Assembly (NCBI GenBank): GCA_016790435.1
Contig: JAEUPE010000153.1
Span: 1-42,466, forward strand
Direction of reading: 5' to 3'
DNA length: 42,466 bases
From: Rubrivivax sp.
Lineage (GTDB): Bacteria; Pseudomonadota; Gammaproteobacteria; Burkholderiales; Burkholderiaceae_C
Positions 24,353 to 41,465 of the stretch are shown one piece after another. Positions within the stretch are counted from its first letter, which is position 1, and each line of letters starts with the position of its first letter. The position numbers were made by a program, and so were the translations under genes. The notes below the pieces were generated by a model. It was not told where the DNA came from, searched no databases, and saw nothing but the letters and a program-made list of their open reading frames with translations.

Positions 24353-25534
24353 CTACTTCGCGCTGGCGATGTACGCTGCAAGATCCAGCCGGTTCTGTGT
24401 CGTCAGGCTCGTGTTCAGGCTGGAGTGACTGCCGACCTTGCTTAAAACCGATGCCAGTCCGGCCACCGTGTTCGCCTTGGAATCACTGGCCTTGCTGGTG
24501 CCGTGGCAACCCGCGCACGAGTTGTTGTAGATGGCCGACCCGGATGCCACGTTGCCTACAGCGGGTGCGGGTGCCGGTGCCGGCGGCGGAGGGGGCGGTG
24601 GAGGGGGCGGGGGCGACGGAGTCGGCGGAGGCGGCGGTGGGGATGGAGGCGGCGGCGGCGGGGGCGGGGGCGGGGGCGGCGGTGTGACCGCGCCAGAGCC
24701 CGCCGACCAACTGCCCATGTCGCCGGCCACGGGCCCGGTGAGAGTGCCCGTCAGATTGCCGTCGGTCGCGACCTGTCCAGTGGCACGGATCGAGAGGTGA
24801 CCACCCCCCTTGAACGTGAGGCTGACCATCCCGGTCGCGCCGATCGTGCCGTCGACCTTGTAGCTGCGGCCCAAGCCCCCACCCGCTCCCACGGCGCCCA
24901 GCGCCGCGATCTTGGCCTCGTATTCGAGCGCCAACGCAGCCAGGTCGGCGTGGTACCGCTCGGTGCGCTCAGCGAAGGCGGCCCTGAAGATCTGCCAGGC
25001 CTCCTTCTGCGCCGCGGTGCGGCGCTTGCCGCCATCGGTTGGGGCGCCCGCCGCCAGCGCGGCCTTCAGGGTCTGCGTCAGTGCCTCCACGTCGGCCCTG
25101 AAGGCCGTGCGCAGATCGGCGCGCTTGGCACGCCGCTCGTCCTTCAACGCCTGCAATTGCGAGTTGGTGTCCGTGCCTCCCGCCGCGTCCGCAGCCGCCG
25201 GAACCAACGTCCCTTCGACCCGGGTGACACCGTCTTCGCGCTCGCTCTTCAGCATCAGCGTACCGGCCAGGCTGCGGCCGGCGTCAGGCCCGGCCGTGAA
25301 GGTGGCTGCGAAGGCGTAGAGGGTCTGCCCCATCCCCATCTCGTTGCCGGAATCACCATCGGACGACGTGCTGACACGCAACGCCGTGGCCGTCTCGACC
25401 ACGTCGACACGGGAGCCCATTGCCGCAGCGTCGGTGGCGGTCGACGATCCATCGCCGCCTCCACATCCGTACAAGACCGCGACCGCCACGCTCAGCGCGC
25501 TCAGCCTCAGCGCCTTCAGACCATTTGCATTCAT
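24353..25534 (-). CDS. Lipoprotein with poly-proline linker and C-terminal mono-haem cytochrome c domain
   Basis: 393 residues. Signal peptide ends in the lipobox VLYGC, followed by GGGDGSS. Residues ~30-265 are an unrecognised domain with a helical charged middle (LKDERRAKRADLRTAFRADV) and beta-rich flanks. Residues ~290-330 are an almost pure proline linker that could span a considerable distance from the membrane. The last ~65 residues contain one haem site, CAGCH. No Met follows it, so the usual His/Met axial pair is not available; the His in KVGSHSSL is a candidate sixth ligand. A tethered electron-transfer head is inferred. ATG 25534 has an AGAGGA ribosome site. Confidence 0.87.
   Translation of the reverse strand: MNANGLKALRLSALSVAVAVLYGCGGGDGSSTATDAAAMGSRVDVVETATALRVSTSSDGDSGNEMGMGQTLYAFAATFTAGPDAGRSLAGTLMLKSEREDGVTRVEGTLVPAAADAAGGTDTNSQLQALKDERRAKRADLRTAFRADVEALTQTLKAALAAGAPTDGGKRRTAAQKEAWQIFRAAFAERTERYHADLAALALEYEAKIAALGAVGAGGGLGRSYKVDGTIGATGMVSLTFKGGGHLSIRATGQVATDGNLTGTLTGPVAGDMGSWSAGSGAVTPPPPPPPPPPPPPSPPPPPPTPSPPPPPPPPPPPAPAPAPAVGNVASGSAIYNNSCAGCHGTSKASDSKANTVAGLASVLSKVGSHSSLNTSLTTQNRLDLAAYIASAK
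24590..24690 (-). repeat. Proline-codon tract in the cytochrome lipoprotein
   Basis: About 100 bp of CCG/CCC/CCA-type codons on the minus strand, interrupted by a few Ser, Thr and Ala codons, encode the linker before the cytochrome domain. Such G/C-only tracts are prone to sequencing and slippage errors. Confidence 0.8.
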
Positions 25535-25961
25535 GCTTGTTCCTCTCTGGACGATTCGACCGAAAGGCCAAGGTGCATTTGATTCGATCCGCACCAGCCC
25601 TTTCGAACTGCGCCAACGAAGCTTCGCGCGATAAATGCAGAGCGCCGAAGGCGAGCGAAAGATATCGAGGAAGCACGTCGCGTGGGCATTTGTGCCCGGG
25701 GGTCTTACCTCGGTAACTTCGGTCCCGTATCCAGGTACATCGATGTCTTCAGGTCTTACTTAGATTTGGTCCTCGCGACATGCCCTGCAAACTGATTGAA
25801 TCGAGCGACTGCGAATCCGAATCCAGCGTGCCATTTGCCCGATACCCACTCACAGGCGCGGTTGCGCAAGCCGCTGCATCTGCGCGGCAGGAAAATGCAA
25901 GCCACTCGCCGCGCCCTCGGCGGCAGGACTCATCGCATTGGCGCGACGGAGCCCTGGAGAT
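25535..25961. other. 427-bp intergenic region of lower GC
   Basis: No gene is supported. The small open frames here have little third-position G/C bias, unlike the real genes. The stretch 25680-25790 is distinctly A/T-richer and contains TTACCTCGGTAA at 25705-25716 and a short GGGCA-TTTG-TGCCC hairpin at 25684-25697. It is the upstream region of the cytochrome lipoprotein gene and probably contains its promoter. Confidence 0.6.
25705..25716. promoter_or_regulatory. TTACC-TC-GGTAA dyad upstream of the cytochrome lipoprotein
   Basis: A 5-bp inverted repeat around TC, 171 bp upstream of ATG 25534, sharing its core with the element at 23841-23852. Confidence 0.4.
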
Positions 25962-27251
25962 TCAGCCGCCGTGATGCGTGTCGAAGGCCACGCCCGCCTT
26001 CTGCAGCAGCCCGATGGGCAAGAGGCCGCCGGTGCAAACGATCACCGCGTCGCTGCGCAGCGTCTTCTCGCCCTCGCGGGCCTTGAGCCGCACGCGGCCC
26101 GGCTCGACGGCCGCGACGTTGGATTCGAGCTCCACCGTCACACGCCCGGCCGCCTGCAGCGCAGCCAGGCCCTCGCGGTTGCGCGCCTTCACGCGCGAGA
26201 AGGCCGCGCTGCGGTACGACAGTGTCACTTGCGTGCCCGGCCGCTCCGCGAGCGCGATGGCCGCTTCGAGCGCGCTGTCGCCACCGCCCACCACGAGCAC
26301 CGCCTGGCCGTCGTATTGCGCCGGGTCGATGAGGCGATAGACGACCTGCGGGCTGTCCTCGCCGGGCACGCCGAGCTTGCGCGGCGTGCCGCGCCGGCCC
26401 ATCGCCAGCAGCACGCTGCGCGCGCGATGGCTGCCGCGCGCCGTGCTGACGACGAAGCCCTCACCTTCGCGGCTGATGTTCTCCATGCACTCGCCGAAGC
26501 GGATCTGCAGGCCCGTGCGCTTGACCACGCCTTGCCAGAACTCGAGCAGCTTCTCCTTGCGCACGTCGGTGAAGCGCATCATGCCGACGAGCGCCAGCTT
26601 CACCGGCGCCGTCATCGCCACCTTGTGACGCGGGTAGTGGAAGACGGCGCCGCCGAGCGAAGGCTCCTGCTCGAGCAGCAGGTAGCGCAGCTTGTGCTCC
26701 ATCGCTGCCAGCCCGGCCGAGAGGCCGGCCGGGCCGCAGCCGACGATGATCACGTCGTACTCGGGCGCCGTGGCCCCTCGGCGCTTGCGAATCGCCTCCA
26801 TGGCCTGCCGCCCTTGCTCGGCCGCCTTGCGGATGAGGCCCATGCCACCCAGCTCGCCGGCGATGAACAGGCCCGGCACGTTGGTCTCGAAGTCCGGCGT
26901 CAGGCGCGGGATCTCGATGCCGCGCCGCTCGGTCCCGAAAACCAGCTTGATCGCATCGAGCGGGCACGCCGCCGCACAGGCGCCGTGGCCGATGCAGGCC
27001 GAGGCGTTGATGAGCGCCGCCTTGCCGCCTACCATGCCGAGCGCGCCTTCGGGGCATGCGGCGATGCAGGAGGCCGAGCCGAGGCAGCGCCCCGGATCCA
27101 CCACCGGGTGCAGTGAGGGCGGCTCGGCAAGGCCAGCCTCGATCGACGCCTGCAGTGCCGCGCGGCTGCGTCGGTCCACGTGCCGCCGCCGCCAGACGTA
27201 GGCACCCCAGGCCAGCGCCATCAGCGCTGCGTACATCCACAACAGTTCCAC
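25962..27251 (-). CDS. Membrane-anchored Fe-S/FAD oxidoreductase
   Basis: 429 residues. One N-terminal transmembrane helix (about residues 2-20) is followed by two ferredoxin-like motifs, CLGSASCIAACP and CIGHGACAAACP. Each lacks the second Cys of the usual CxxCxxCxxxCP (Ser and His instead). The rest is a two-dinucleotide-fold flavoprotein: VIIVGCGPAGLSAG for FAD, VLVVGGGDSALEAA for NAD(P)H, and CTGGLLPIGLL near the end. No CxxC redox disulfide of thioredoxin reductase is present, so electrons probably pass between NAD(P)H, FAD and Fe-S. It is the last gene of the multihaem operon, 37 bp after the porin gene, with GTG start 27251 and GGAGG upstream. It could link the conduit to the NAD(P) pool. 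Confidence 0.88.
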   Translation of the reverse strand: MELLWMYAALMALAWGAYVWRRRHVDRRSRAALQASIEAGLAEPPSLHPVVDPGRCLGSASCIAACPEGALGMVGGKAALINASACIGHGACAAACPLDAIKLVFGTERRGIEIPRLTPDFETNVPGLFIAGELGGMGLIRKAAEQGRQAMEAIRKRRGATAPEYDVIIVGCGPAGLSAGLAAMEHKLRYLLLEQEPSLGGAVFHYPRHKVAMTAPVKLALVGMMRFTDVRKEKLLEFWQGVVKRTGLQIRFGECMENISREGEGFVVSTARGSHRARSVLLAMGRRGTPRKLGVPGEDSPQVVYRLIDPAQYDGQAVLVVGGGDSALEAAIALAERPGTQVTLSYRSAAFSRVKARNREGLAALQAAGRVTVELESNVAAVEPGRVRLKAREGEKTLRSDAVIVCTGGLLPIGLLQKAGVAFDTHHGG

Positions 27252-27288
27252 GCCGGCCCCTCCGCGCTACCCCTGTGAAGACCTGCGC

Positions 27289-29850
27289 TCAGAACTCGTA
27301 GCGCGTGCCGAGCAGGTAGTTGACGCGCCGCGTCGACTCACGCGTGGTGAGCGTCAGCGTCGGGTCGGCGGGGTCGGGTGAGAGCCGCGTCGCACGCCCG
27401 ATCTCGTAGGTCAGGCTGCTCTCCACCGTCCACGGCTTGATGCCGCGCCAGGTGACCCGCAAGGCCGGCGTCACGCGCTGGTTGGTGCTGCCCTCGGGCG
27501 TCTTGTCGCGGTAGAACTGCAGCGAGGGTTCGAGCTGCCAGGCCGGGCCGAGGTAGCTCGAGTGGTTGTAGCTCAGCAGCACGCCCTCGATCGAGCGGCC
27601 GTTGAGCACGGTGCCGGACCACACGTGCGTGTCGCGCTGCGTCAGCAGGTTGGCGGCCACCACCTGCACGTTGAGCGCGTAGAAGTTGCCGCTCGCCGGC
27701 TGGCCGTTCTCGTAGCCCGCCACGCCCGGCACGGGCGGAATGGCGCCCGTGCTCGTCAGTTGCACGTTGGCACCCAGCTGCCAGGTCTTGTCCAGCGGTC
27801 GCGTGAAGCCGAGCTGCGCCTGCGTGACGAAGGGGGTCGTGCCGCGCACCTGCTCGCGCAGCGCCTCCAGCGTCGTCGTGGCGAGCTTGTCGCCGATGCG
27901 CTCGAAGCGCACGCCGGGCAGGGCCGGGTCCTCGAACGTGAGGGCGTTGCCCAGGGCCAGCAGCGGCAGCGCGCGCTTGTCGTACAGGACGTTGACGACG
28001 CCACCGTCGGCGAAGACCCAGGTGCCCTGCACGGTGGCGATGTTCATCGTCTTGAACAGCAGGTCGTGGTCGAGCTGCGCGAAGACCGAAGCGCCGTCCT
28101 TGAAGTAGCGCGCCTCCAGGCCGATGGCGCGGCGGTCGATCTCGGCGTCGATCTTCTGCTCGATGCCGTAGAGTGCGAGCCCGAGGTTGGGCACGAGGCC
28201 GTCGGCGTCGATGGCGCCGCCGACGAAGCGGCGCTTGGAGGCGAAGAACTTGTCCACCGGCTCGCCGGCCACGGCACTGAGCTTGATGCCGGGGTGCACG
28301 AGCACCTGGCCGGTGGCGCCGTCGAAGCGGCCGAGCACGCCGCCGCCCTGCGGCGACTGCCGCCCGAGGCGCACGCCCCAGCCGCCGGGCAGGGCCTTGT
28401 AGTCGAAATACAGCGAAGAGAGGCGGTTGCGGCTCTTGTCGCTGCGCTCGAGGTCGCTCGTGTACGAGTCGCGCAGCACGAAGCGCATGTCCTGGTCGGC
28501 GTCGCGCTGGCGCCAGGCGAAGTCGACGTCACCGAGCACCTGGCGGCTGCGGTCGGAAGACAGCAAGGGCTCGCCGGGGGTCGCGGGCAGGCCACCGACG
28601 GGCGAGTCCTTGAACTCCTGGCTGCGCAGTTGGCCGTTGCCGCCGAAGTAGGTGAGGCCGGCAGAGCCGCTGATCAGCGTGAGCGTGGGGGCGCGCGGCG
28701 GCGCGGGAACCCCGGCCGTGGCCGACGCAGCCGGGCTGCCGCCGGGCGAGGACGGTGCCCCTGCAGTGCCGGCCGCGGCCCCCGCTGGTCCCGCCACGGC
28801 AGCCCCCGGCAGCGCGGCGAGTTCGCGCCGCACACGCTCGCTGCCCTCGCCCGTGGGGAACTGGCGCAGGTAGGACTCGAACTCCAACCGCGCGCGGCGA
28901 TGGTCGCCCATGCGCGCGCGGGCGATGCCAGCCAGCTCCAACCCGTCGCGCGTGTAGCGGTTGGGTGGCAACGCGAGCAGGTCGTTGGCGGCATCGAGCG
29001 CCGCCGCGTGCGCGCCGCGGGCCAGGGCCTGGCGGCCGGTGTCGAGCAGCGCGGCGGCCGTCAGTTGCACGGCAGCGGGCGACATGCCGGCGGGTGCCTC
29101 GGCAGGCGCCTGCTCGGAAGTCGCCGGGGCGGAAGTCGCCGGGGCTGAGGCGGCAGGCGTGGGCGCCGGTACGGGCGGTGCCGGCACAGGCACCGGAACA
29201 GGCACGGGAACGGGAACGGGTTGGGGCACAGGCGCAGGCGCGGGAGCGGGGGCGGATGCGGCCGGCGCAGGCCCGGTGGGCCGGGGCAGCGGTGCCGGCA
29301 CGGGTGTCACCGGCACACGCGGCGCCGGGACGGGCGCGGTGACCGTCGGCCGCGCCGCCTCGCCCGGCCAATCGTGCAGAACGATCTCGAGGCTGCGCCC
29401 GCCGGCGCCGGCGCGAACGCTCAGGCGGGCCACGCCGGTGGCGCGCACCACCAGGCGGCGACCGCGGACGTCCGCTTCGGGGTCGTCCTCGAGCTGCACG
29501 TCGGGCAGGCCCTGCCGCGCGCCGAAACGCAGCGCCTGCGAGGAGCGCAGCTGCGCGTTGGTGGTCGACACCAGCGAGTAGTAGATGGACAGCAGCGCCG
29601 CGCGGTCGGCAGCCACGCTGCGCTGCAACTGCACCTGCTCGGTGAAGCGCACCAGCATCACCGTGTCCGACCCCTCACGGCGGGCATCGACCTGGTCGAT
29701 GGCCTGTGCCATCACGGCGGAAGGCAGGGTGCCCAGCGCGGCCAGCACGGCCCCGACCTGCACGATCACATGGGGGGAAACGGGCCAGGCCCGCGAAGGA
29801 GAACTCGAGAACACGGAGTGAAACCTCACCATCGATCCCATCAATCCCAT
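27289..29850 (-). CDS. Porin-like outer-membrane beta-barrel with periplasmic AMIN-like and TPR regions
   Basis: 853 residues. After an N-terminal signal peptide (cleavage near SAVMAQA) comes a ~110-residue beta-rich domain (IDQVDARREGSDTVMLVRF...) resembling AMIN/secretin-type periplasmic domains. A Pro/Val/Ala linker and TPR-like helices (ALARGAHAAALDAANDLLAL, RARLEFESYLRQFP) follow. From about residue 370 to the end the sequence alternates like a large beta-barrel (GVRLGRQSPQGGG, GLEARYFKDGASVFAQLDHD) and ends in LLGTRYEF with the C-terminal Phe of outer-membrane proteins. I infer a porin that houses one of the multihaem cytochromes. The start overlaps the cytochrome stop (TGATG); three in-frame ATGs (29850, 29841, 29832) arise from a 9-bp repeat. 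Confidence 0.82.
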   Translation of the reverse strand: MGLMGSMVRFHSVFSSSPSRAWPVSPHVIVQVGAVLAALGTLPSAVMAQAIDQVDARREGSDTVMLVRFTEQVQLQRSVAADRAALLSIYYSLVSTTNAQLRSSQALRFGARQGLPDVQLEDDPEADVRGRRLVVRATGVARLSVRAGAGGRSLEIVLHDWPGEAARPTVTAPVPAPRVPVTPVPAPLPRPTGPAPAASAPAPAPAPVPQPVPVPVPVPVPVPAPPVPAPTPAASAPATSAPATSEQAPAEAPAGMSPAAVQLTAAALLDTGRQALARGAHAAALDAANDLLALPPNRYTRDGLELAGIARARMGDHRRARLEFESYLRQFPTGEGSERVRRELAALPGAAVAGPAGAAAGTAGAPSSPGGSPAASATAGVPAPPRAPTLTLISGSAGLTYFGGNGQLRSQEFKDSPVGGLPATPGEPLLSSDRSRQVLGDVDFAWRQRDADQDMRFVLRDSYTSDLERSDKSRNRLSSLYFDYKALPGGWGVRLGRQSPQGGGVLGRFDGATGQVLVHPGIKLSAVAGEPVDKFFASKRRFVGGAIDADGLVPNLGLALYGIEQKIDAEIDRRAIGLEARYFKDGASVFAQLDHDLLFKTMNIATVQGTWVFADGGVVNVLYDKRALPLLALGNALTFEDPALPGVRFERIGDKLATTTLEALREQVRGTTPFVTQAQLGFTRPLDKTWQLGANVQLTSTGAIPPVPGVAGYENGQPASGNFYALNVQVVAANLLTQRDTHVWSGTVLNGRSIEGVLLSYNHSSYLGPAWQLEPSLQFYRDKTPEGSTNQRVTPALRVTWRGIKPWTVESSLTYEIGRATRLSPDPADPTLTLTTRESTRRVNYLLGTRYEF

Positions 29851-29856
29851 CAATCC
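29830..29856 (-). repeat. Three 9-bp repeats at the start of the porin gene
   Basis: catcgatcc-catcaatcc-catcaatcc on the plus strand gives three in-frame ATG codons on the minus strand and also contains the stop codon of the upstream cytochrome gene. Confidence 0.8.
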
Positions 29857-31829
29857 CACTTGGTGTAAGCGGCGCCCTTGTTGCCCAGCGGGCGGTGGCA
29901 GCCGGACTGCGAGCAGTCGGTGACGACCGTGCTCGACCCCGCCTCGTGGCGCAGCGACTTGCGCTCCATCGGGCCGGCGTAGCGCGTCGCGCTGTCGTGG
30001 CACGACTTGCACCAGCCGGCACCGTTGCCCTGGCTGTTGTTGTGGTTCATGCGCTGCGTGAGCCAGCTCGTCGTGCTCGTGTGGCACGACTTGCAGTCCA
30101 GCAGTGCGCCGCCGAGCAGTTGCGCCTCGGGGATGTGGTTGGCCGTCTTGGCCAGCGCACCCGTGGTGCCCTCGCCCAGGTACTGGCCGTTGTGACAGGC
30201 CTTGCACTCGGCGGTGGAGACGACCGTGTGGTTCATCGTCACGCTGGTCGTCCAGGCCGTCTGCGACTTGTGGCAGCTGTCGCACTTGGCCGCACCGGCG
30301 GGCACCGGCACGTGCCCGGCGTGTTTGCCCTTGGCCGAGGCACCGTTGTGGCAGGTGTCGCAGGTGCCGGTACCGACGGCGTTGGCCGCCGTGTGGGCGC
30401 CGGTGACACTCGTCCACACCGTCGTCGAGCGGTGGCAGCTGTCGCAGGTGGCGGTGGTCGCCACGTGTGTGGCCGACTTGCCTCTCGCCGAGGTGCCGTT
30501 GTGGCAGGTCGCGCAGGCGGTGGTGGCGACGACCGAGTGATTCATCGTCACTGCGGCGTTGAATGCCGACTGCGACTTGTGTCAGCTGACGCAGTTGCTC
30601 GTCGTCGAAGACACCGTGATGTGCGCGGCGTGCTTGCCCTTGGCCGATGTGCCGTTGTGGCAGGTGTCGCAGGTGCCGGTGCCCACGGCGTTGGCGGCGG
30701 AATGGGCGAACGTGGCGCCGGTCCACACCGTGGTCGAGCGATGGCAGCTGTCGCAGGCGGCGGTGGTGGCCACATGCGTGGCCGACTTGCCTCTCGCCGC
30801 GGTGCCGTTATGGCAGCTCGCGCAGGCCGTGGTGGCGACGACCGAGTGGTTCATCGTCACCGCGGCGTTGAAGGCGGTCTGCGACTTGTGGCAGCTGTCG
30901 CACTTGCTCGTCGAGGACGACACCGTGATGTGCGCGGCGTGCTTGCCCTTGGCCGCCACGCCGTTGTGGCAGGTGTCGCAGGTGCCGGTGCCCACCGCCG
31001 TGGCCGAGGTGTGCGCCCCGGTCACGCTGGTCCAGTTGGCCGTCGTGCGGTGGCAGGTCTCGCACGCCGCGGTGGTCGCCACGTGCGTGGGCGGCTTGCC
31101 GGTGGCCGAGGTGCCGTTGTGGCAGCTGGCGCAGGCCGCCGTCGCGACGACCGCGTGGTCCGTGCGCACCGAGACCGTGAAACTCGCCTGCGACTTGTGG
31201 CAGCTGTCGCACTTGGCGGCGCCGGCCGGCACCTGGATGTGCGCCGGGTGCTTGCCGCGCGCGCCGACCCCGTTGTGGCAGGTATCGCAGGTGCCCGTGC
31301 CCACGGCGTTGGCCGCCGAATGCCCGCCGGTGACGGCCAGCCACGTGCTCGTGGAGCGATGGCAGGTCTCGCACGAGGCCGTGGTCGGCACGTGCGTGGC
31401 CGGCTTGCCCGGCGCGATCGAGCTGTTGTGGCAGGTCATGCACGTGCCCGGCGCCACACCGCTGTGGCTGAAGCGGGCGCCGGTGAAGGTGCGCGTGTTG
31501 TGGCAGCTGTCGCAGGCCTGCTGGGTCGGCAGGTGCTTCACCGGCATCACGACGTTGCCGCGCGCCAGCCGCATGCCGGCCCGGTGGCAAGAGGCGCAGT
31601 CGCGCGGCGTGCCCTGGAAGATGCCGTTCTGGTGGCAGCTCTCGCAGCGCGCCTGTGCATGGCGGTCGGTGAGTGGAAAGCCCGTGCGCAGGTGGTCGAA
31701 GTCGGCGCTCTGCGGCGAGCCCGGTTTGGCCGGCTGCGCCATCGACACGGACAGCGAGAGGCCGCCCGGCGCCCAGGCCGCCGCGCCCCACAACAGCGCC
31801 GCCAGCAGCACTGCAAGCCACTTCTTCAT
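29850..31829 (-). CDS. Large multihaem cytochrome c (21 CXXCH plus variants) with internal TGA
   Basis: 660 codons including one in-frame TGA at 30582-30584. Signal peptide MKKWLAVLLAALLWGAAAWA precedes 14 CXXCH motifs up to the TGA, then seven more, then a CX4CH (CSQSGCH). The TGA replaces the second Cys of a further motif, CVS-stop-H, where parallel repeats read CDSCH. Much of the protein is a 103-residue, four-haem repeat. Truncation would leave 415 residues and 14 haems. The product is presumably a periplasmic or barrel-inserted electron wire. ATG 31829 overlaps the stop of the 24-haem gene (ATGA) and has GGGAGG upstream; the far end overlaps the porin start. The coupling suggests the whole length matters, but whether readthrough occurs cannot be told here. 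Confidence 0.85.
30180..31500 (-). repeat. 309-bp tandem repeats encoding four-haem modules
   Basis: The phrase ctgcgacttgt (complement of the CHKSQ region) recurs at 30261, 30570, 30879 and 31188, exactly 309 bp apart. Each 103-residue unit carries four haem motifs in the order CxSCHKSQ, CASCHNGT, C[ED][ST]CHR and CDTCHNG. Boundaries are approximate. Confidence 0.9.
30582..30584 (-). other. In-frame TGA in place of a haem-ligating cysteine codon
   Basis: The minus strand reads AGC AAC TGC GTC AGC TGA CAC AAG TCG where the repeat 309 bp away reads AGC AAG TGC GAC AGC TGC CAC AAG TCG. Haem-motif sequence resumes directly in the same frame. Confidence 0.92.
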
Positions 31830-33787
31830 GGTCGCCTCCCTTGGTTGGGCGATGGGTTCGGCACTTGGTTGGGGACTTGCCCGGGCCCTTGGTTGGGCGT
31901 TGGGTTGGACGGACCCATGCGCGCCCCGCGCGGGCGGATCTGCTTCCAGTGCCCGGTGCTGTGGCATTGCTCGCAGGCGCCGCCGAAGGCCCCGTCGTGC
32001 ACGTCGTCGCGGCGGTGGCACGAGACGCAGGTGGTACCCACGGCCGCCGCCGCGCGCCCCTTCGGCGCCGGCAGCGTGTGGCAGCCCTCGCACGCCAGCG
32101 CCGCATGCGCGCCGTCGAGCACGAAGCTCGTGCGCCGCGTGTGGTCGAAGCTGCCCAGGCCCCAGTGGCGCGTGTTGTGGCAGCTCGCGCAGTCGGTGCC
32201 GAAGCGGGCCTTGTGCCGGTCGTCCTTCTGATGGCAGCCGACACACTCGCGCGGCGCGTCCCGATAGCGCGGCGTGGCGTGGCAGTCCTTGCACGCCACC
32301 TGTGCGTGCCGGCCGGTGAGCACGAAGCGCGTGCGCGTGTGGTCGTAGGTGGCCACCTTCCAGTTGCGCTCGTCGTGGCAGCTCTCGCAGCGCGTGCCGA
32401 GCTGGCCCTCGTGCTTGTCGTTCTTCTTGTGGCACGAGAAGCAGTCGAGCGCGGTGCCGCGGAACTTCGTCAAGTCGGCGTGGCAGCTCTTGCAGGCGAG
32501 GCCGGGCGCGGCGTGCGCCTGCCGCAGCGGGAAGCGCGTCTTGGCATGGTCGAACTTCGGCGAGCTCTTCCAGTCGCGTTCGCTGTGGCAGCCGGCGCAG
32601 TCGGTGCCGAGCGTGCCCTGGTGGCGGTCGTCGCTGCGGTGGCAGCCGATGCAGTCCTTCGGCGCCTGCTTGTGGTCGGGGCTCTTGTGGCACGACTCGC
32701 AGCGCGCATCGCGGTGCTTGCCGCGCAGCGCAAAGGCCGTCTTGTCGTGGTCGAAGCGGCCGCGCTCCTTCCAGTTGTTCTCGGTGTGGCAGGCAGCGCA
32801 GTCGGCGCCGAGGCGGCCCTCGTGCTTGTCGTCCTTGCGGTGGCAGTCGATGCAGGCGCTGCCCGGCTTGTCGCGGCCGATGTTCAGCGCCGAGGTGGCG
32901 CTGCCCGTGCCGGCGGGCCCGCCGTGGCAATCGGCGCACTTGGCACTGCGGTGCTTGCCGCGCAGGACGAATCGCGTCGCGGTGTCGTGGTTGAAGTTCG
33001 CCGGCCGCCAGGCCCGCGTGTCGTGGCACGACTCGCAGCGTTCGCCGAGCTGGCCCTTGTGTGAGCGGCGGTCGTCGTCGCGGTGGCAGGCCAGGCAGGC
33101 GCGCGCCGTGTCCTTGTACTTGCCGTCGCGGTGGCATGAGTCGCAACGCGCGTTGGCGTGTTTGCCGGTGAGGCCGAAGCGCGTCGTGCCGTGGTCGAAC
33201 TTCACGTCCTTCCAGGTCTGCTCGCCGTGGCAGTCGGCGCACTTCGGGCCGAGGCCGCCCTTGTGCACGTCGTCCTTGCGGTGGCAGGCGTTGCATTCCT
33301 GCGGCGCCTCGCGGTACTTGCGGCCGCTCTGGTGGCACGAGACGCATCCCGCCTTGGCCGTCTGCGGCATCTTGGCCAAGTCCGCGTGCTTGCCGCGCAG
33401 CGCCCAGTCGGTGCCGGCATGGTCGAACGTCGCCTTGTCGAGGTTCACGATGCGGGCGTTGCGGCCGCGGTGGTCGGTGTGGCAGCTGCGGCAGGCCTGC
33501 CCCTGCCCGGGCAGCGGGCGCATGCGGCCGTGCAGGCCGATGCGCTCACGCACGTCCTGCCCCACGTCCTTGTGGCACGACATGCACAGCCGGTCCTGCG
33601 CGGCGCGGTCGAAGCGGACGTGGCACTGGGCACACTCGTCCTCCCACTTCGCATGGCCGGCGATGACATCGCCCGGCCGCAGCACCGACTCCAGGCTCTG
33701 CGCGGCGGCCGGCGCGGCGGCGTACGTGAAGGCGAGCATGAGCGTCAGCGCGAGGCAGAGCCGGGACACGAACCTGAGCACGGGCAT
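31826..33787 (-). CDS. 24-haem cytochrome c
   Basis: 653 residues. Signal peptide (LCLALTLMLAFTYAAAPAAAQS) precedes 24 CXXCH motifs spread over residues ~50-620, often in pairs such as CxxCHxxDDxHxGxLGxxCxxCH. That pattern, with repeated FDHxxTxFxLxGKHxxxxCxxCH, resembles NrfB/DmsE-like and doubly repeated multihaem families. Extra His in H-x-C contexts can supply bis-His ligation. It is predicted to be a periplasmic haem wire passing electrons between the inner-membrane partner and the outer-membrane complex. The C-terminal ~25 residues are a Pro-Asn-Gln-rich tail (NQGPGQVPNQVPNPSPNQ) of unknown purpose. ATG 33787 overlaps the upstream stop (TGATG) and its stop overlaps the next ATG. Confidence 0.93.
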   Translation of the reverse strand: MPVLRFVSRLCLALTLMLAFTYAAAPAAAQSLESVLRPGDVIAGHAKWEDECAQCHVRFDRAAQDRLCMSCHKDVGQDVRERIGLHGRMRPLPGQGQACRSCHTDHRGRNARIVNLDKATFDHAGTDWALRGKHADLAKMPQTAKAGCVSCHQSGRKYREAPQECNACHRKDDVHKGGLGPKCADCHGEQTWKDVKFDHGTTRFGLTGKHANARCDSCHRDGKYKDTARACLACHRDDDRRSHKGQLGERCESCHDTRAWRPANFNHDTATRFVLRGKHRSAKCADCHGGPAGTGSATSALNIGRDKPGSACIDCHRKDDKHEGRLGADCAACHTENNWKERGRFDHDKTAFALRGKHRDARCESCHKSPDHKQAPKDCIGCHRSDDRHQGTLGTDCAGCHSERDWKSSPKFDHAKTRFPLRQAHAAPGLACKSCHADLTKFRGTALDCFSCHKKNDKHEGQLGTRCESCHDERNWKVATYDHTRTRFVLTGRHAQVACKDCHATPRYRDAPRECVGCHQKDDRHKARFGTDCASCHNTRHWGLGSFDHTRRTSFVLDGAHAALACEGCHTLPAPKGRAAAAVGTTCVSCHRRDDVHDGAFGGACEQCHSTGHWKQIRPRGARMGPSNPTPNQGPGQVPNQVPNPSPNQGRRP

Positions 33788-34782
33788 CAATAGGCATGCA
33801 CCGCAATCACATGCACGACGGTGCTGATCACGAGCAGATAGATGAACGGCAGGTGGGCGATGTGCCACAGCGCGAAGACGCGCCCGAAAGCCTGCCGACG
33901 GGCGACCTGCACCACCGCCTGCAGGTGGTCGTCGACGAGCCGCTCGGCGCGCCGGCGGCGCCGCGCCAGCTCGTCGGCGCTCCAGCGCCCGGCGGCGGCG
34001 CGCGCCGCCAGCGGCGCGCGCAGGTCGCGCAGGCCGCGCCACAGCGCGAAGCGGCGCTGCAGCGGCAGCAGCAGCACCTGCCGCAGGTCGCGCAGGCGCC
34101 GTGGCTCGCCGCCGAGCTCGCGCGCCTCGAAGGCCCTGAGGCGCTGCTCCACCGCCGGCGCGTAGTGCAGCGCCGAGGGACCGGCCCCTTCGCTGCCCTC
34201 GCCTCGCTCAGCGGCCAGGCGCCCGCGGCGCTGCACCGCGTGCAGCGCGGCCACGGCGTCCTCGACATGGCTGTTCAATCGCACGTAGAGAAAGCGCCCG
34301 ACCACGCCGCTCCCGACCACGATGGCCATGCTGTACAGCGCCACGGTGGCGTTCAGCGAGCCGGTGCGGAATGCCGCGTGCACGAGGATGAGCCAGGGCC
34401 CGAACACTCCCATCAGGAGGTGGAACCAGAACCATCCCTTGACCTTGCCGAGGCGCCGCATCCAGCCCGCGTACTTGCGCAGCGGATACAGGAACAGCAG
34501 CAACATCATCGAGGCGCCGGCCACGCCGACCCAATAACCGAGCCGTTCCTGCGGCCGCACCCAGCCTTCCTCGCCGATCTGCCACGCCAACATCACGAGC
34601 CCGGCCAGCGCCACGACGAGCAGCAAGTCTCGGAGCCACTGGCGGTCGCCCGGACGACCCGGGGCGGGTGCGCTCGATGTGGGGGACGGGTCGATGCGCT
34701 CATCCTCCGCGGATGGATTGGAGGCGGCGAGCAGGCTGGCATCGGCCACGGTCGGCGCGAAGGAGTCCGTCATGCTGCCCAT
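33787..34782 (-). CDS. Membrane cytochrome b-like protein of the multihaem operon
   Basis: 331 residues. Four likely transmembrane helices: two between residues ~50 and 105 (LLLVVALAGLVMLAWQI and VGVAGASMMLLLFLYPL), one with WFWFHLLMGVFGPWLILVHAAF, one with LYSMAIVVGSGVVGRFLYV, and a last at the C-terminus, ALWHIAHLPFIYLLVISTVVHVIAVHAY. Paired His on these helices suggest b-type haem ligands, as in ferric-reductase or cytochrome b561-like proteins. A long Arg-rich cytoplasmic loop lies between helices four and five. I infer the inner-membrane electron exchange point, probably with quinone. ATG 34782 has GGAG at 8 bases; a GTG at 34788 overlapping the upstream stop and an ATG at 34773 are alternatives. 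Confidence 0.75.
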   Translation of the reverse strand: MGSMTDSFAPTVADASLLAASNPSAEDERIDPSPTSSAPAPGRPGDRQWLRDLLLVVALAGLVMLAWQIGEEGWVRPQERLGYWVGVAGASMMLLLFLYPLRKYAGWMRRLGKVKGWFWFHLLMGVFGPWLILVHAAFRTGSLNATVALYSMAIVVGSGVVGRFLYVRLNSHVEDAVAALHAVQRRGRLAAERGEGSEGAGPSALHYAPAVEQRLRAFEARELGGEPRRLRDLRQVLLLPLQRRFALWRGLRDLRAPLAARAAAGRWSADELARRRRRAERLVDDHLQAVVQVARRQAFGRVFALWHIAHLPFIYLLVISTVVHVIAVHAY

Positions 34783-34784
34783 GC

Positions 34785-36038
34785 TCACAACTCCACGTGG
34801 ATGCTGGTCGCCTGCAGCCGCGTGCGGTCGGCCGACAGGGTGCCCTTGACGGCGACGCGCCGGTTGAGCGCCAGGTCGGCCACGGTGCCGCCTTCGAACC
34901 GCGGCGTGCCGGCGTAGCTGACCGTCACGCCGCGCACGACGAAGGTCAGCGCGGTGGTGTCGAGCGCGCTGATGCGGCCCTCGAGCTCGAACCGGCGGCC
35001 GTCGGACTCGTCGTCGGACTCGAGCTCGACCTTGCGCGCGACCAGCGTGCCGCCGACCGTGCGCCCCTCCACCTCGACGCGCGCACCGACGGCGAGGCTG
35101 GCAGTGCCGCCCTCGAAAGTCGCCCCCCGCGCGTCCACCGGGACACCATCGACGCTGAAGTCCTGCGGCGACGCGAAGAGGGTGATGCGGCCTTCGATCT
35201 CGACCTGTTCACTGTCGCCCAGCATCAAGCCGGCAGGGCGCAACGCGCTTGCGATCCACTCCGTGCCGGTGCGCTGCGGCTGCAGCTTGACGCGCGCGAG
35301 CGTGCCCGCGGGCAACGAGGCCGGCAGATCGGCCTCGCCGAGGGCCGAGAGATCGATCGCGACGCCGCCCATCAGGAGCCGGCGCAGGCCACGCTCGTAG
35401 GTGTCGACAGGAGCGCGCAGCACGTAGGCCGGCGCCTGCGTGCGCGGCTCGATGCGCGTGGCCACGATGCGGGCATCGGCCACGTCCAGCTGGCCGAACA
35501 CGGCCAACACGTCGCCGGCGCGCAGCGAGGTCAGGCCGCCAGACAGCCGCGCATCCAGCACCGTGGTGGGCGTGACGACGACGCGCTGGCCCAGCACCCG
35601 CAGCACGGTACCGGAGGGCTCGACGCTCTCCAGCGGCCCGATCACCTGCTCGACCACGCGCACGCGCAGGGCGGTGGAATCACGCCGCGTGCCGCTGTCG
35701 ACGATGGCCGAGCCTTCGATGGCGGTCATCGTGCCGAGTTGCAGCGCCTGGGTGTCGAGCGGCTGGCCGTCGTCGTCGACGATCTGCGCGCCGCTTTCGT
35801 CGTGGTGGATGCCGCCGACCACGACGGAGCCGAAGCCGCTCACCGGCCCCACCGTCACGCTGGCCGGCGTGGCGCCGGTGCCGCCAGAGTCGACGCCCCC
35901 GCACCCGGAGAGCAGGAGGATCGCCACCAGTGCGATGAGCGAATACACCGCGCTGGCGATCCATGCCGCCCAGGCGGCCATCGCCGCCCGCCGGGTGTAG
36001 GGCCCGTACGGGAGCTCAGAGTTTCGGGTCATCGGCAT
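34785..36038 (-). CDS. DUF5666-domain lipoprotein
   Basis: 417 residues. A long N-terminus leads to a hydrophobic segment ending in lipobox LLLSGC followed by GGVDSGG, so a lipoprotein is predicted. The rest is a series of small beta domains of the DUF5666 type (GPVSGFGSVVVGGI, FSVDGVPVDARGATFEGG, LEGRISALDTTALTFVVRGVTVSY, LALNRRVAVKGTL). DUF5666 proteins are extracytoplasmic with unknown activity; I infer a structural or assembly partner of the cytochrome complex. ATG 36038 has GGAG 7 bases upstream and overlaps the DUF6502 gene by 23 bp; its end overlaps or touches the membrane-protein start, keeping the operon coupled. Confidence 0.85.
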   Translation of the reverse strand: MPMTRNSELPYGPYTRRAAMAAWAAWIASAVYSLIALVAILLLSGCGGVDSGGTGATPASVTVGPVSGFGSVVVGGIHHDESGAQIVDDDGQPLDTQALQLGTMTAIEGSAIVDSGTRRDSTALRVRVVEQVIGPLESVEPSGTVLRVLGQRVVVTPTTVLDARLSGGLTSLRAGDVLAVFGQLDVADARIVATRIEPRTQAPAYVLRAPVDTYERGLRRLLMGGVAIDLSALGEADLPASLPAGTLARVKLQPQRTGTEWIASALRPAGLMLGDSEQVEIEGRITLFASPQDFSVDGVPVDARGATFEGGTASLAVGARVEVEGRTVGGTLVARKVELESDDESDGRRFELEGRISALDTTALTFVVRGVTVSYAGTPRFEGGTVADLALNRRVAVKGTLSADRTRLQATSIHVEL

Positions 36039-36891
36039 TCGAAGGCTCCATCGTTGCCCCAGGGAGTGCGGGCAACGGCTCGTGATAGGCGTAAAGGCCG
36101 ACGCGCAGACGGTGGTCGGGCGCGCGCCCGGCAGCGCCGTCCTGCTCGATCAGCGCCTCCAGCGCCGGCACGAGCGCGGCGAGCAGGTGCGTCCACTGCG
36201 CCGAGACGAGCGCCTGGGCGGCGGGCACCGAGGCACCCGAGATCGTGTTGCTGAAGATCGCCTGCTCGAGGTGCCGGCGGTCGCGGTGCAGCACGTTGGC
36301 CACCGCGGCGGCGAGGTGGTCGCCGACGTTGGCGGCGAGAAAGCCGTACAGGCGCGCCTCGTCAGCCTCGGGCACCACGCGCACCGGCAGGGGCACGACG
36401 CTGTCGCCCTGGTCGGCCAGCCTGACCATGCCCAGGCGCAGCATCTCGTCGAGCAGGCTGCGCGGGTGCACGTGCTTGGTCACCGACTGCGCCATCGACT
36501 CGAAGCTCGGCGCCGGCCCCTGGCGCGGCAGCTTGCGCACATGCCCGTTGCGGTGCCGCAGCGAGCGGTCGGCGAGCCAGCGCGTGAGCAGTTGCGTCGC
36601 CGGCGTCATGCGCTGCAGCGACCGCGGCGCGAGATCGGCGCCGATGCGCGCCACGTCGCGCCGGCTCAGGCCGGTGGCGGTGGCCACCTGGCTGACATCG
36701 CGCACCGCGTCGTTGCCGGCGGCCTGCCGGCGTTCACGCGCCGCCCGCACATAAGCCCGCTTGAACAGTTCCTCGGCCTTGGCGAAGTGCAGGCCCCGCG
36801 CCACGCACAGGCGCGCCAGCGGCAGCAGCACCTCTTCGGCGGTGCGCAGCAGCAGGGCCTCGCGGTCGGCGATGTTCGCGGCTTCGGGCAT
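36016..36891 (-). CDS. DUF6502 family protein, probable regulator
   Basis: 291 residues, no signal peptide. The N-terminal half has LLLPLARLCVARGLHFAKAEELFKRAYVRAA and VATATGLSRRDVARI, helix-turn-helix-like segments typical of the DUF6502 family; the C-terminal half is helical (GFLAANVGDHLAAAVANVL). DUF6502 proteins are commonly found upstream of DUF5666 genes, as here. A DNA-binding regulatory role is inferred. ATG 36891 (MPEAANIADREA) is preferred because the other candidate, ATG 36921, lies inside a perfect palindrome likely to be an operator; neither has a clear ribosome site. First gene of the seven-gene electron-conduit operon. Confidence 0.78.
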   Translation of the reverse strand: MPEAANIADREALLLRTAEEVLLPLARLCVARGLHFAKAEELFKRAYVRAARERRQAAGNDAVRDVSQVATATGLSRRDVARIGADLAPRSLQRMTPATQLLTRWLADRSLRHRNGHVRKLPRQGPAPSFESMAQSVTKHVHPRSLLDEMLRLGMVRLADQGDSVVPLPVRVVPEADEARLYGFLAANVGDHLAAAVANVLHRDRRHLEQAIFSNTISGASVPAAQALVSAQWTHLLAALVPALEALIEQDGAAGRAPDHRLRVGLYAYHEPLPALPGATMEPSNADDPKL

Positions 36892-36902
36892 GGCTTGGCG
36901 GG

Positions 36903-36923
36903 AAATGCGCAATTCGCGCATTT
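36903..36923. promoter_or_regulatory. Palindrome at the head of the electron-conduit operon
   Basis: AAATGCGC-AATTC-GCGCATTT is a perfect 8-bp dyad immediately upstream of ATG 36891 and covering the alternative ATG 36921. A repressor site, perhaps for the DUF6502 protein itself, is inferred. Confidence 0.55.
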
Positions 36924-37108: not shown

Positions 37109-37639
37109 TCAGTCGTCGCGCTTGGGCAACGAGTGTGCGATGCCCTGGTGGCACTCGATGCAGGTCTTGCCCTCCTTGCGGCCCTCTTCCATCTTCTCGC
37201 GCGCGCGCGGCGTCTGCTTGTGGAAGTCCATCGCCTCCCAGCTGTGGCAGTTGCGACATTCGCGCGAGTCGTTGGCCTTCATGCCGGCCCACACGTGCTC
37301 GGCGAGCTCCTTGCGCTTGGCCTCGAACTTCTCGGGCGTGTCGATGGTGCCGCGGAAGTGGTGGAACAACTCATTGGAGGCTTGCATCTTGCGCAAGAGC
37401 TTCGGCCCCCAGGCCTTCGGCACATGGCAGTCGGCACAGACGGCCCCCACGCCGGTGCGGTTGGAGGCGTGCGCGCTCTTGCGGTACTCCTCGTAGACGG
37501 TGCTCTTCATCTCGTGGCAGGAGATGCAGAACGCCATCGTGTTGGTGGCTTCCATCGCGGTGTTGAAGCCGCCCCAGAACACCACACCGAGGAGGCCGCC
37601 CACGAGCAGCAGCGCAAAGGCGGACCTCGGTGCGCGCAT
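37109..37639 (-). CDS. NapC/NirT-family tetraheme cytochrome c
   Basis: 176 residues. One N-terminal transmembrane helix ([17 protein letters not shown]) anchors the protein, followed by four CXXCH motifs: CISCHEM, CADCHVP, CRNCHSW and CIECHQG. Order, spacing and the helix are those of the NapC/NirT/NrfH family, which oxidise quinol and pass electrons to periplasmic partners, or run in reverse. ATG 37639 overlaps the stop of the diheme gene (TGATG), so they are a coupled pair. It probably connects the quinone pool with the diheme protein and perhaps with the multihaem conduit 200 bp downstream. Confidence 0.95.
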
Positions 37640-38349
37640 CACTTCGGCGGCAGCGTGGTGAGGTGCACGGCGATGTCGGCCGCGATCTGGTGGTCGAGCG
37701 CCCGCAGCGCCGGCATGGCCTCACCCGGCTGGCCGTTGAGCAGCTTGTGCATCATCTCGGCGCCGTTGTCGGCGACCGAGCCGAGCGGCGGGCCGTCCTT
37801 GACCTTCTTGCCGTCTTCGCCGTGGCAGCCGGCGCACAGGGTGTTGAAGTAGGTGGCGCCGCGTGCGCGGTCGCCCTTGGCCTTGTTGGCCGCGTCGATG
37901 TACTTCGGCAAGCTGCCCTGGCCCTTGCTGACGAAGAGCGCGAGGTCGCTCGCGTCCTTGGCGCTCAGCATCGCCTCGGTGTAGCCGTGTGTCTTGTCGC
38001 GCAGCAGCGCGGCGATGGTGGCCGGCTCCTTGCCCGCCGCCCCCTGGATGCCGACGAAGCCGGTGAAGTGGCTGCCCTTGGCGTAGGCGCCGTCCTTGCC
38101 GCGGTAGTCCCAGCCGTGGCACTCCTTGCAGCGCCAGGAGTTCTCCTTGCCGTACTTGCCGCCCTTGATGTACGACGGATGGTCCGCGCCGGGCTTGGCG
38201 GTCTTGTTCTCGGCGTAGTACTTGTCGTACAGGCGCGCGCCACGTGCGATGGCGGACTCGACCTCCTGGGCCTGCGCGGACATCGCGGTGCAAACGAGCA
38301 GGATCGCTGCGGCCAGGCCGGTCAAGCGGGCGGATGTGCTGAAGCTCAT
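37639..38349 (-). CDS. Diheme cytochrome c
   Basis: 236 residues with a signal peptide ([17 protein letters not shown]). Two haem sites are visible, [16 protein letters not shown] near residue 75 and [19 protein letters not shown] near residue 175, each in a class-I-like domain; Met residues downstream (GEAMPALR and others) may be axial ligands. It is a soluble periplasmic electron carrier or small oxidoreductase; I cannot name the substrate. ATG 38349 is preferred because AGAGGAG lies six bases upstream; the ATG at 38355 directly abuts that site. It is first in the pair with the NapC/NirT gene. A CTGAAG-N5-CTGAAG repeat lies 122 bp upstream. Confidence 0.9.
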
Positions 38350-38470
38350 CGTCATCTCCTCTGTGCGCCAGACGCTGGATCGCGAAGGCGCATGGCAGTG
38401 TTGCGCGCGGCCGGGTGCCGGGCTTGCTCTGCATCAAGCGCCCCATCGAACGAGCGATCCGCTTACAAGC

Positions 38471-40109: not shown

Positions 40110-40172
40110 GGTGAGGTGCTCACGGCGTCGTGCTCGCCTCACATCGATGCCATCGCACCCGCGGCGCCGCAC

Positions 40173-40835
40173 TCACGGCACGGCGACGAGCCGGTAGCCG
40201 AGGCCGCGCACGGTCTCGATGGCCTCGGCCGGCAGCTTGCGGCGCAACCGGCCGACGAACACCTCGATCGTGTTGGAGTCGCGGTCGTGATCCTGTGCGT
40301 ACAGGTGTTCGGTGAGCTCGGTGCGCGAAACCACCGTGCCCGGCCGGTGCATGAGGTACGCGAGCAGGCGGAACTCCTGCGCCGTCAGCGCCACCGGCTG
40401 GCCGTGCACCGTGACCCGGCTGCTGCGTGTGTCCAGCGCCAGCGCACCGCACGCGAGCAGGGGCGAGGCAAGACCCTGCGCGCGGCGAATGAGGGCGCGC
40501 AGGCGCGCCAGCAGCTCTTCCATGTGGAAGGGCTTGGCCAGGTAGTCGTCGCCACCGGCGTCGATGCCGGCCACCTTCTCGTGCCAGCCGTCGCGCGCGG
40601 TGAGGATGAGCACCGGCATCGCGCGGCCCGCCTCGCGCCAGCGGCGCAACACGCTCAGCCCATCGAGCACGGGCAGGCCCAGGTCGAGCACGACCGCGTC
40701 GAACGGTTCGGACTCGCCCAGGTGCAGCGCGTCCCGGCCGTTGTCGGCTTCGTCGACGACGTAGCCGGCCTCGACCAGGGCGGCCCGCAGTGGCGAGCGC
40801 AGCGTCGGCTCGTCCTCGACGAGCAGGATCCTCAT
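40173..40835 (-). CDS. QseB/PmrA-like response regulator
   Basis: 220 residues. Receiver with ED at 7-8, phospho-acceptor Asp51 (VVLDLGLPVLDG), Thr in LILTARDG and Lys in AKPFHMEEL; winged helix with LTAQEFRLLAYLMHRPG, SNTIEVFVGRLRRKL and VRGLGYRLV. The sequence is of the QseB/PmrA/TctD type, whose members bind direct repeats spaced 11 bp. Such repeats are found near this gene and upstream of two cytochrome operons. ATG 40835 is chosen because the receiver begins there (MRILLVEDEP). It follows the PepSY gene by 34 bp and precedes the kinase, forming a three-gene operon. Confidence 0.95.
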   Translation of the reverse strand: MRILLVEDEPTLRSPLRAALVEAGYVVDEADNGRDALHLGESEPFDAVVLDLGLPVLDGLSVLRRWREAGRAMPVLILTARDGWHEKVAGIDAGGDDYLAKPFHMEELLARLRALIRRAQGLASPLLACGALALDTRSSRVTVHGQPVALTAQEFRLLAYLMHRPGTVVSRTELTEHLYAQDHDRDSNTIEVFVGRLRRKLPAEAIETVRGLGYRLVAVP

Positions 40836-40869
40836 GGCACCCGATGGGGGGGATGGCGGAGGGGGCGCT

Positions 40870-41292
40870 TCATCGCGGTTCCTCCCGGGCGTCCCGGGCG
40901 TCTTTGGCGGGAGGCGAGTCCGGATGGTCACGGCCCCGCTGGCGGTCGTTGCGGCCACGCTCGCGCTTGCTCTTCAGGACCTCCGCCGTCGCGGCATCGA
41001 GCTCGAGCTTCAGCAGCTGGCCGTCGGCCTGCAGCAGCTTGACCTCGTAGATCCAGCGGCCGGACTTGCGGCCTGCCGCGCGCTCGTCGGCGACGTCCTC
41101 GAACTCCAGTTCGAGCTCGAGCACCTTGCCCGGGTGCGTGCGCTGCAGGCGCTCCAGCAAGGTCGGCAGCGGCAGCACCTCGCCGGCCAACACGGCGGCG
41201 CGGGCCCGGTCGTGGTCACCCTTGCGGCCGGCCCAGGCCGCGGGCGCAGCGGACACGGCCAGCGCCATCACCGCCAAGGTCAGGGACCGCAT
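40870..41292 (-). CDS. Exported PepSY-domain protein
   Basis: 140 residues. Signal peptide MRSLTLAVMALAVSAAPAAWA is followed by a PepSY-like domain: ARAAVLAGEVLPLPTLLERLQ, VLELELEFED and GRWIYEVKLLQADGQLLKLELDAATAEVL. The C-terminus is very basic and acidic (KSKRERGRNDRQRGRDH). Small PepSY proteins often accompany two-component systems and may act as periplasmic inhibitors or sensors. ATG 41292 gives a compact signal peptide but has no ribosome site; ATG 41379 has GAAGG upstream but would add ~29 residues before the hydrophobic core. Confidence 0.85.
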   Translation of the reverse strand: MRSLTLAVMALAVSAAPAAWAGRKGDHDRARAAVLAGEVLPLPTLLERLQRTHPGKVLELELEFEDVADERAAGRKSGRWIYEVKLLQADGQLLKLELDAATAEVLKSKRERGRNDRQRGRDHPDSPPAKDARDAREEPR

Positions 41293-41366
41293 GGCGACGC
41301 AGCGCGCGGCACGCCGGACGGAAGCAGGCAGGCGAAGAAGCACCGAGGCATTGTCGGCGCCGTCGG

Positions 41367-41384: not shown

Positions 41385-41388
41385 GCGC

Positions 41389-41406: not shown

Positions 41407-41465
41407 CGGGGTTTCGAAGAATGCGCTCATCGCGTCGATGTATGGCGCATCCACCGGAACCCTCG

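Follow-up and report, generated by a model that had tools for sequence, protein, structure and literature searches.

The PCC3-type porin-cytochrome cluster of a Rubrivivax genome and its near-constant Fe-S/FAD partner

The locus described here raises the question of whether an Fe-S/FAD enzyme, encoded at the end of a porin-cytochrome operon, belongs to the electron conduit beside it and, if so, in which direction that conduit runs. The operon lies on contig JAEUPE010000153.1 of Rubrivivax sp. (assembly GCA_016790435.1); the entire contig, 42,466 nucleotides (nt) in length, is referred to as the window. It is one (C21) of the 302 contigs of a metagenome-assembled genome (MAG) estimated to be 80.8% complete. 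Seven minus-strand genes, running from position 36921 to 25962, encode a DUF6502 protein, a DUF5666 protein, an inner-membrane protein (IMP), two multihaem cytochromes (MHC1 and MHC2), an outer-membrane barrel and the Fe-S/FAD enzyme. The operon is real and is a porin-cytochrome cluster of the PCC3 type, which has been a candidate iron-oxidation system since 2017. The enzyme is a near-constant partner of PCC3 and not an oddity of this operon.

The seven genes were found on the minus strand at the positions given by an earlier, sequence-only reading of this DNA, and the same order was observed at 74–90% identity in a sister MAG titled 'Burkholderiales bacterium isolate NC_groundwater_1989...' (L126, hereafter the sister), where the DUF6502 protein was 90% identical. 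The description of one translationally coupled operon was accurate for five of the six junctions, at which genes overlapped by 1–23 nt, but not for the last step, where a gap of 37 nt separated the barrel gene from the Fe-S/FAD gene.

Co-occurrence of the Fe-S/FAD protein with PCC3

The association was evaluated first in the window's family (299 genomes). An IMP match at E 0.001 was obtained in 30 genomes, and the 22 that reached E 1e-40 were counted as having the IMP; the Fe-S/FAD protein was present in 23, including all of these 22. Only one of the 277 genomes without PCC3 (G218) had the enzyme (Fisher p = 2e-32, ignoring kinship). The DUF6502 protein, being encoded in the same operon, served as a control; it was present in 118 of the 299 genomes, that is, in 16 of 22 with PCC3 and 102 of 277 without. 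Therefore, while DUF6502 was enriched in PCC3 genomes, it was too widespread elsewhere to be a PCC3-specific part and was rejected as such. The sequence-only reading had remarked that neither the enzyme nor the DUF6502/DUF5666 head was explained by the MtrCAB model; the two can now be separated, as the enzyme is a regular partner by co-occurrence, while the head is a minority accessory of PCC3.

A similar pattern was seen across 369 genomes of the class. The IMP occurred in 42 genomes (36 of 272 genera) and the enzyme in 44, with both in 41, leaving three of 327 genomes with the enzyme alone. For the enzyme, 59 genomes gave a match at E 1e-30; 15 were dropped because nothing but the flavoprotein half was matched, as part of a larger protein, and G591 and G793 were counted from fragments. 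Where only the IMP was counted (G683), an Fe-S/FAD fragment adjoined it; where only the enzyme was counted (G670), barrel and cytochrome matches lay within 8 kb; and in G591 a 3.5-kb contig carried haem-rich frames next to an enzyme gene that was broken. There was no cytochrome on the short contigs of G218 and G793. The 47 IMP places in the class had the enzyme on the same contig in 41 cases, and divergently transcribed within 3 kb in 35.

A collection of named genomes was also scanned with the IMP alignment, giving at least 80 loci; all counts for this set refer to the matches listed. The enzyme was encoded in the flank of the IMP at 37 of 80 loci. The other 43 loci belonged to 42 genomes, 38 of which had the enzyme elsewhere, a few as partial matches; these included Sphaerotilus mobilis, Polaromonas jejuensis, Rubrivivax albus and Ideonella aquatica. 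Taken with the co-occurrence above, the Fe-S/FAD protein is very probably a functional partner of the conduit.

The PCC3 cluster type was already known; what is new here is the near-constant partner, which lies outside the four-part definition of PCC3 in the portions of the literature covered. No Fe-S/FAD or flavin enzyme was named as a component in the parts covered of PMC5566968, PMC10734462, PMC12442390, PMC8788666, PMC12016527 or PMC13386937, although figures and supplements, which were outside this scope, may show it. The terms 'FAD' and 'flavoprotein' were absent from the main texts (figures and supplements aside) of all of these but PMC10734462, where 'flavoprotein' gave no match and 'fad' a single match at the start of a word, not as a whole word. 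Further literature searching gave no other report of the enzyme with PCC3. Of the 87 iron oxidisers in Table 1 of PMC10734462, however, 41 are listed with a '4Fe-4S ferredoxin' cluster and 42 with the periplasmic PCC3 subunit. The tabulated ferredoxin may or may not be this enzyme; no motif of the CX2-4CH type counted in that table is present in the window's protein (CXXCH was searched, longer spacings were inspected by eye).

Parts of the conduit and a putative electron route

The features of the operon are collected in Table 1. The DUF6502, DUF5666 and Fe-S/FAD identities of the sequence-only reading were upheld by the Pfam matches shown there.

Table 1. Features of the PCC3-type operon and their positions in the window
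Feature	Position	Strand	Evidence
DUF6502 protein, 301 aa, first operon gene, accessory	36016..36921	-	Pfam PF20112, 39.7 bits (cut-off 27)
DUF5666 predicted lipoprotein, 417 aa, accessory	34785..36038	-	Pfam PF18914, 103.6 bits (cut-off 27)
PCC3 IMP, 333 aa, predicted two-haem cytochrome b	33787..34788	-	two WX3HX13H and SGVVG; five hydrophobic segments
MHC1, 24-haem cytochrome, predicted periplasmic PCC3 subunit, 653 aa	31826..33787	-	24 CXXCH; triplet haem spacing
MHC2, repeat-rich cytochrome, predicted outer PCC3 subunit	29850..31829	-	21 intact haem motifs and one interrupted
In-frame TGA, MHC2 codon 416, inside 15th haem motif	30582..30584	-	
Outer-membrane barrel, ~850 aa, C-terminal Phe	27289..29850	-	AlphaFold2 model; fold matches
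Membrane-anchored Fe-S/FAD/NAD(P) oxidoreductase, 429 aa	25962..27251	-	Pfam Pyr_redox_3 151.9 bits, Fer4_10 42 bits; co-occurrence; fold

The comparison with PCC3 drawn in the sequence-only reading was correct. Membership of PCC3 is almost certain, since the barrel, both cytochromes, the IMP motifs and the gene order all fit the features of that class. The order of IMP, periplasmic cytochrome, extracellular cytochrome and porin is that of Slit_1446–1449 in ES-1, where these genes encode the IMP, a periplasmic cytochrome with 24 haems, an extracellular cytochrome with 28 haems and a porin, respectively (PMC8788666, PMC12016527); a second ES-1 cluster comprises Slit_0867–0870 (PCC3 being defined by He et al. 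2017, PMC5566968). The barrel and both cytochromes recurred across relatives, and so homologous clusters do not consistently lack them. MHC1 was found at 79 of the 80 named loci and MHC2, in a separate frame, at 70, of which 59 placed it downstream of MHC1 on the same strand; nine of 79 MHC2 matches fell within the MHC1 frame and were not counted. The barrel was matched within the fetched flank at 36 loci. One homologous cluster belonged to Sphaerotilus mobilis DSM 10617 (L189), listed as L. mobilis DSM10617; this is the type strain of a group in which PCC3 is reported (PMC13386937), and the homologous cluster may be the one meant there.

Six loci titled Nitrospira or Nitrospirae (L186, L188, L193, L194, L198 and L204) departed from the betaproteobacterial order: their MHC2-like gene was upstream of the IMP and encoded on the other strand, and the barrel, where found, lay there too. 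A locus titled Candidatus Methanoperedens (L160) had a Burkholderiales-like IMP (47% identity) and cytochromes, and is probably a misbinned contig.

The window's IMP contained WFWFHLLMGVFGPWLILVH, SGVVG and WHIAHLPFIYLLVISTVVH, and this motif pattern was identical in all 32 homologue regions tested. Its length, its five hydrophobic segments, the two WX3HX13H motifs and the glycine motif agree with the PCC3 IMP as described (~300 aa, five transmembrane segments, two WX3HX13H, SGXXG). The distribution of positive loops across 33 homologues would leave the loop between the fourth and fifth segments (median 133 residues) and the first histidine of each pair (123 and 312) facing the cytoplasm, with His 137 and 326 facing the periplasm. 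A Pfam scan of 33 IMP sequences at E 0.1 matched 12 families, among which PF01794, the ferric reductase/NADPH oxidase domain, was absent; the rows obtained were weak, including DUF6713, DUF4405 and one cytochrome b561. The IMP profile gave a single chance-level row against PDB sequences (E = 0.79).

The sequence-only reading had correctly counted 24 haems in the first cytochrome, and its '21-plus-haem' description of the second was right with respect to 21 intact motifs among 22 sites, but overlooked that MHC2 is not a single open frame (see below). No CXXCH was present on the plus strand between 24000 and 38800. A count of 24 haems is among those typical of the periplasmic PCC3 cytochrome (~21, 24 or 27), the location predicted for MHC1, and its relatives also mostly had 21, 24 or 27 haems (105 rows, in two sets overlapping in organisms); counts of 15 and 18 (3 of 105 rows) look like frames cut by frameshifts or gaps. 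In one MAG (L068/L132) MHC1 was split into frames of nine and 15 haems, probably by a frameshift. There were 27.2 residues per haem in MHC1 and 31.4 per intact motif in MHC2, both inside the range of 22–39 given by He et al. (PMC5566968). The combined Thr, Ser, Ala and Gly content was 48% in MHC2 and 31% in MHC1. With its repeats, this composition and few residues per haem, MHC2 resembles the second PCC3 cytochrome, for which an extracellular location is predicted, its stop codon notwithstanding.

A model was built for the barrel protein with AlphaFold2 on 27289–29829, its start codon being uncertain. This comprised an N-terminal beta domain, a disordered linker, TPR-like helices and a barrel (residues 383–845) in which 22 long strands were counted from the DSSP string; pLDDT was mostly above 90 except at 401–430. 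Foldseek matched the barrel to TonB-dependent receptors, ushers, porins and others, with low query-normalised TM-scores (0.14–0.29). A porin-like barrel had been proposed from the sequence, and failure to predict an outer-membrane barrel had been named as an outcome that would overturn the conduit reading; it did not occur.

The Fe-S/FAD protein begins with a helix that had no Lys or Arg before it and approximately 4.9 after it (means over each 33-row alignment), a charge pattern that suggests a cytoplasmic body. A ferredoxin-like part follows, with the motifs C-x2-S-x2-C-x3-CP and C-x2-H-x2-C-x3-CP. The histidine of the second was invariant in both 33-row alignments; the serine of the first was retained in 32 and 29 rows, being replaced by Ala in one row of each alignment and by Cys in three rows of the second. 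The flavoprotein half (164–428) matched YpdA, thioredoxin reductases and ferredoxin-NADP reductases of the thioredoxin reductase type, and has the FAD- and NAD(P)-binding dinucleotide fold of that group, with both glycine motifs invariant in the alignments. The model of the enzyme had a pLDDT of 83.7 and a pTM of 0.70, and the fold comparison covered residues 161–427, that is, not the Fe-S half. The translation of residues 160–429 contained no CXXC, the redox-active motif of a thioredoxin reductase. The stretch FETNVPGLFIAGE at 121–133 matched the C-terminal FAD segment of YpdA (chain residues 278–298; the match alone was below significance). Because this stretch precedes the GxGxxG motif, the flavoprotein appears from its sequence, as distinct from model coordinates, to be circularly permuted, with its C-terminal FAD segment moved in front. 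A literature search for a permuted protein combining ferredoxin and thioredoxin reductase parts found none.

Based on these features, the Fe-S/FAD protein is proposed to be the cytoplasmic, NAD(P)H-linked end of PCC3. Held at the cytoplasmic face by its N-terminal helix, it would link NAD(P)H, by way of FAD and two Fe-S clusters, to the inner haem b of the IMP. That protein, with two haems b, would move the electrons over the inner membrane, the 24-haem wire of MHC1 would span the periplasm, and the barrel would hand them to the outer cytochrome and then to an outside acceptor such as oxidised metals, humics, an electrode or other cells. NAD(P)H is the somewhat probable substrate of the enzyme. 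That the cluster as a whole is a PCC3-type conduit exporting electrons, with the Fe-S/FAD protein as its cytoplasmic redox partner, is given about an even chance.

Direction of flow and competing readings

Outward flow from NAD(P)H is downhill and runs with the membrane potential, while inward reduction of NAD(P)+ opposes both the redox potential and the inside-negative membrane. For this reason the outward direction was favoured, although net outward flow is put at slightly below an even chance. A fuller formulation is more tentative still: PCC3 might be a five-part trans-envelope NAD(P)H oxidoreductase, in which a permuted flavoprotein of the thioredoxin reductase type with a Cys3His-type ferredoxin passes electrons to the two-haem b protein, a wire of three-haem modules (eight in most clusters) and the barrel, without the quinone pool.

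Several observations weigh against electron export through the Fe-S/FAD protein. The case for NAD(P)H use and for direction comes from motifs and general thermodynamics; neither Pfam nor PDB gave a significant relative of the IMP, whose likeness to NADPH oxidases is one of motif spacing alone. In most cases the Fe-S/FAD gene lies outside the PCC3 operon, on the other strand. G218 has the gene but no IMP, and its 10-kb contig has no haem-rich frames. Four of the 42 named genomes lacked an enzyme match among those listed (L153, L154, L160 and L177, all MAG-titled). The conduit may be broken in this strain, MHC2 being interrupted. Finally, RuBisCO-family proteins are encoded in the window's genome (matches of 446 and 215 bits), and so the organism may be autotrophic and require electrons inward.

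This last point also favours the rather unlikely alternative that PCC3 is, as its first model had it, an inward conduit for the oxidation of Fe(II) or minerals, in which the IMP feeds the quinone pool. The Fe-S/FAD protein would then have a side role, for example in reverse flow from quinol or the IMP to NAD(P)+. A quinone-active cytochrome b receiving electrons from an outside donor was proposed in 2017 (He et al., PMC5566968), and PCC3 is frequent in iron-oxidising Gallionellaceae, where 26 of the predicted complexes were complete and 11 partial (PMC10734462). The expression data in the literature are divided. In Sideroxydans sp. CL21 both PCC3 copies were expressed above the mean, and the IMP of copy 2 was significantly upregulated when iron was oxidisable (PMC12442390), a result that counts for inward and against outward flow; in ES-1 expression of both clusters was lower on Fe(II), and to the authors no role in Fe(II) oxidation was apparent under their conditions (PMC8788666), which counts against inward flow. 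Furthermore, a four-part, quinone-linked conduit does not predict the near-perfect co-occurrence of the enzyme. Reduction of NAD(P)+ from Fe(II) by this route would also be uphill.

In this strain the frame of MHC2 has 14 CXXCH, an in-frame TGA within the 15th of 22 haem motifs, and then seven further CXXCH. The sister had a single intact MHC2 frame with 22 haems, no stop, and an ordinary motif at this site. Further amino-acid differences from the sister flanked the TGA, and no IMP match was obtained in the three other genomes of the genus that were drawn; both would suit a decaying, non-functional copy of PCC3. However, the six other frames are open and 74–90% identical to the sister, and the TGA lies within a 309-bp tandem repeat (3.9 copies) on a single MAG contig, a setting in which the consensus may plausibly be wrong. 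The TGA may be such an error or a true nonsense mutation, and decay is considered unlikely.

It is improbable that the Fe-S/FAD protein is instead a maturation factor, that is, a membrane-anchored relative of disulfide reductases that keeps some 90 haem-binding cysteines reduced, even though its nearest solved relatives are YpdA bacillithiol-disulfide reductases and thioredoxin reductases, and the enzyme is almost confined to genomes with these large cytochromes; its flavoprotein half, as noted, has no CXXC.

A selenocysteine reading of the TGA, under which the haem motif would contain selenium, is very improbable despite SelA (527 bits), tRNA-Sec (75.5 bits) and a SelB-like frame between them (seen by eye) in the genome. 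The 56 nt from one base before the TGA showed no folding beyond that of shuffled sequences (z = -0.79; 42 of 200 shuffles did as well or better). In addition, the sister has an ordinary haem motif there, and a literature search gave a single paper, on methanotrophic archaea. The three selenium genes lie together on one contig (G000:C19, L273), and the organism probably makes selenoproteins.

If the flavoprotein is the inner end of PCC3, as preferred here, the usual reading of the conduit (Fe(II) in, quinone acceptor) may be reversed. Cytosolic NAD(P)H would then be wired directly to the cell exterior, bypassing the quinone pool, and many freshwater Betaproteobacteria could dump reducing power outside the cell. 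As the enzyme is small, expressible and assayable, the PCC3 question becomes directly testable.

Neighbouring genes and known systems

The DUF5666 protein had a lipobox-like stretch, LLSGC, at its N-terminus when inspected by eye. Upstream of the operon by 187 nt, a NapC/NirT-type tetrahaem protein and a cytochrome with two CXXCH were encoded at 37109–38355 (minus strand). These were considered as members of the unit and rejected, having no match in the corresponding stretch of the sister; the NapC-like protein occurred at one, and the dihaem protein at none, of the 80 IMP loci among the matches listed. Further upstream, at 38550–41454 (minus), were a histidine kinase (HATPase), an OmpR-type response regulator and a PepSY protein. 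On the other side, 367 nt downstream of the Fe-S/FAD gene, a frame at 24353–25594 (minus) combined a proline-rich stretch with one C-terminal CXXCH cytochrome c domain. Elsewhere in the window, a protein at 22–1782 (plus) consisted mostly of ALTTAQ repeats (PF20080, nine stretches, 322 bits), and a 147-bp tandem repeat (5.9 copies, 74% match) was located in an unassigned coding region at 12448–13313. An Rfam scan of the window gave no matches at gathering scores.

The cluster shares with MtrCAB, MtoAB and PioAB the logic of a barrel joined to multihaem cytochromes, but differs in having 24 and 22 haem sites against ten. The barrel had no match to PF11854 (MtrB_PioB) at E 0.01, nor was one found elsewhere in the 80.8% complete genome, and the two cytochromes of the cluster scored 27.7 and 82 bits against the decahaem MtrA/DmsE family (TIGR03508), below the cut-off of 192.2. 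PCC4, in which a porin is accompanied by periplasmic cytochromes with 4, 5 and 10 haems, three in all, is also unlike the present cluster, with its two cytochromes of 24 and 22 sites.

In the transmembrane domain of NADPH oxidases and ferric reductases, as in the IMP, the third and last transmembrane segments bear two HX13H pairs, a likeness of spacing noted by He et al. (PMC5566968). A cytoplasmic flavoprotein partner is what an NADPH oxidase-like IMP would need to draw on NAD(P)H, and the Fe-S/FAD protein would provide it. There is no detectable homology to those enzymes, and the flavoprotein here is separate, of the thioredoxin reductase type, and carries Fe-S clusters. It differs in turn from YpdA, thioredoxin reductase and ferredoxin-NADP reductase of the thioredoxin reductase type by an FAD segment that apparently precedes GxGxxG and follows an N-terminal membrane helix and a two-motif ferredoxin part, the second motif of which has an invariant His where a Cys would stand. 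The closest system remains published PCC3, with which the window shares the four core genes, their order, the IMP motifs and the low ratio of residues to haem, and from which it differs in that its operon also begins with DUF6502 and DUF5666 and ends with the Fe-S/FAD gene, and in that its outer cytochrome is interrupted.
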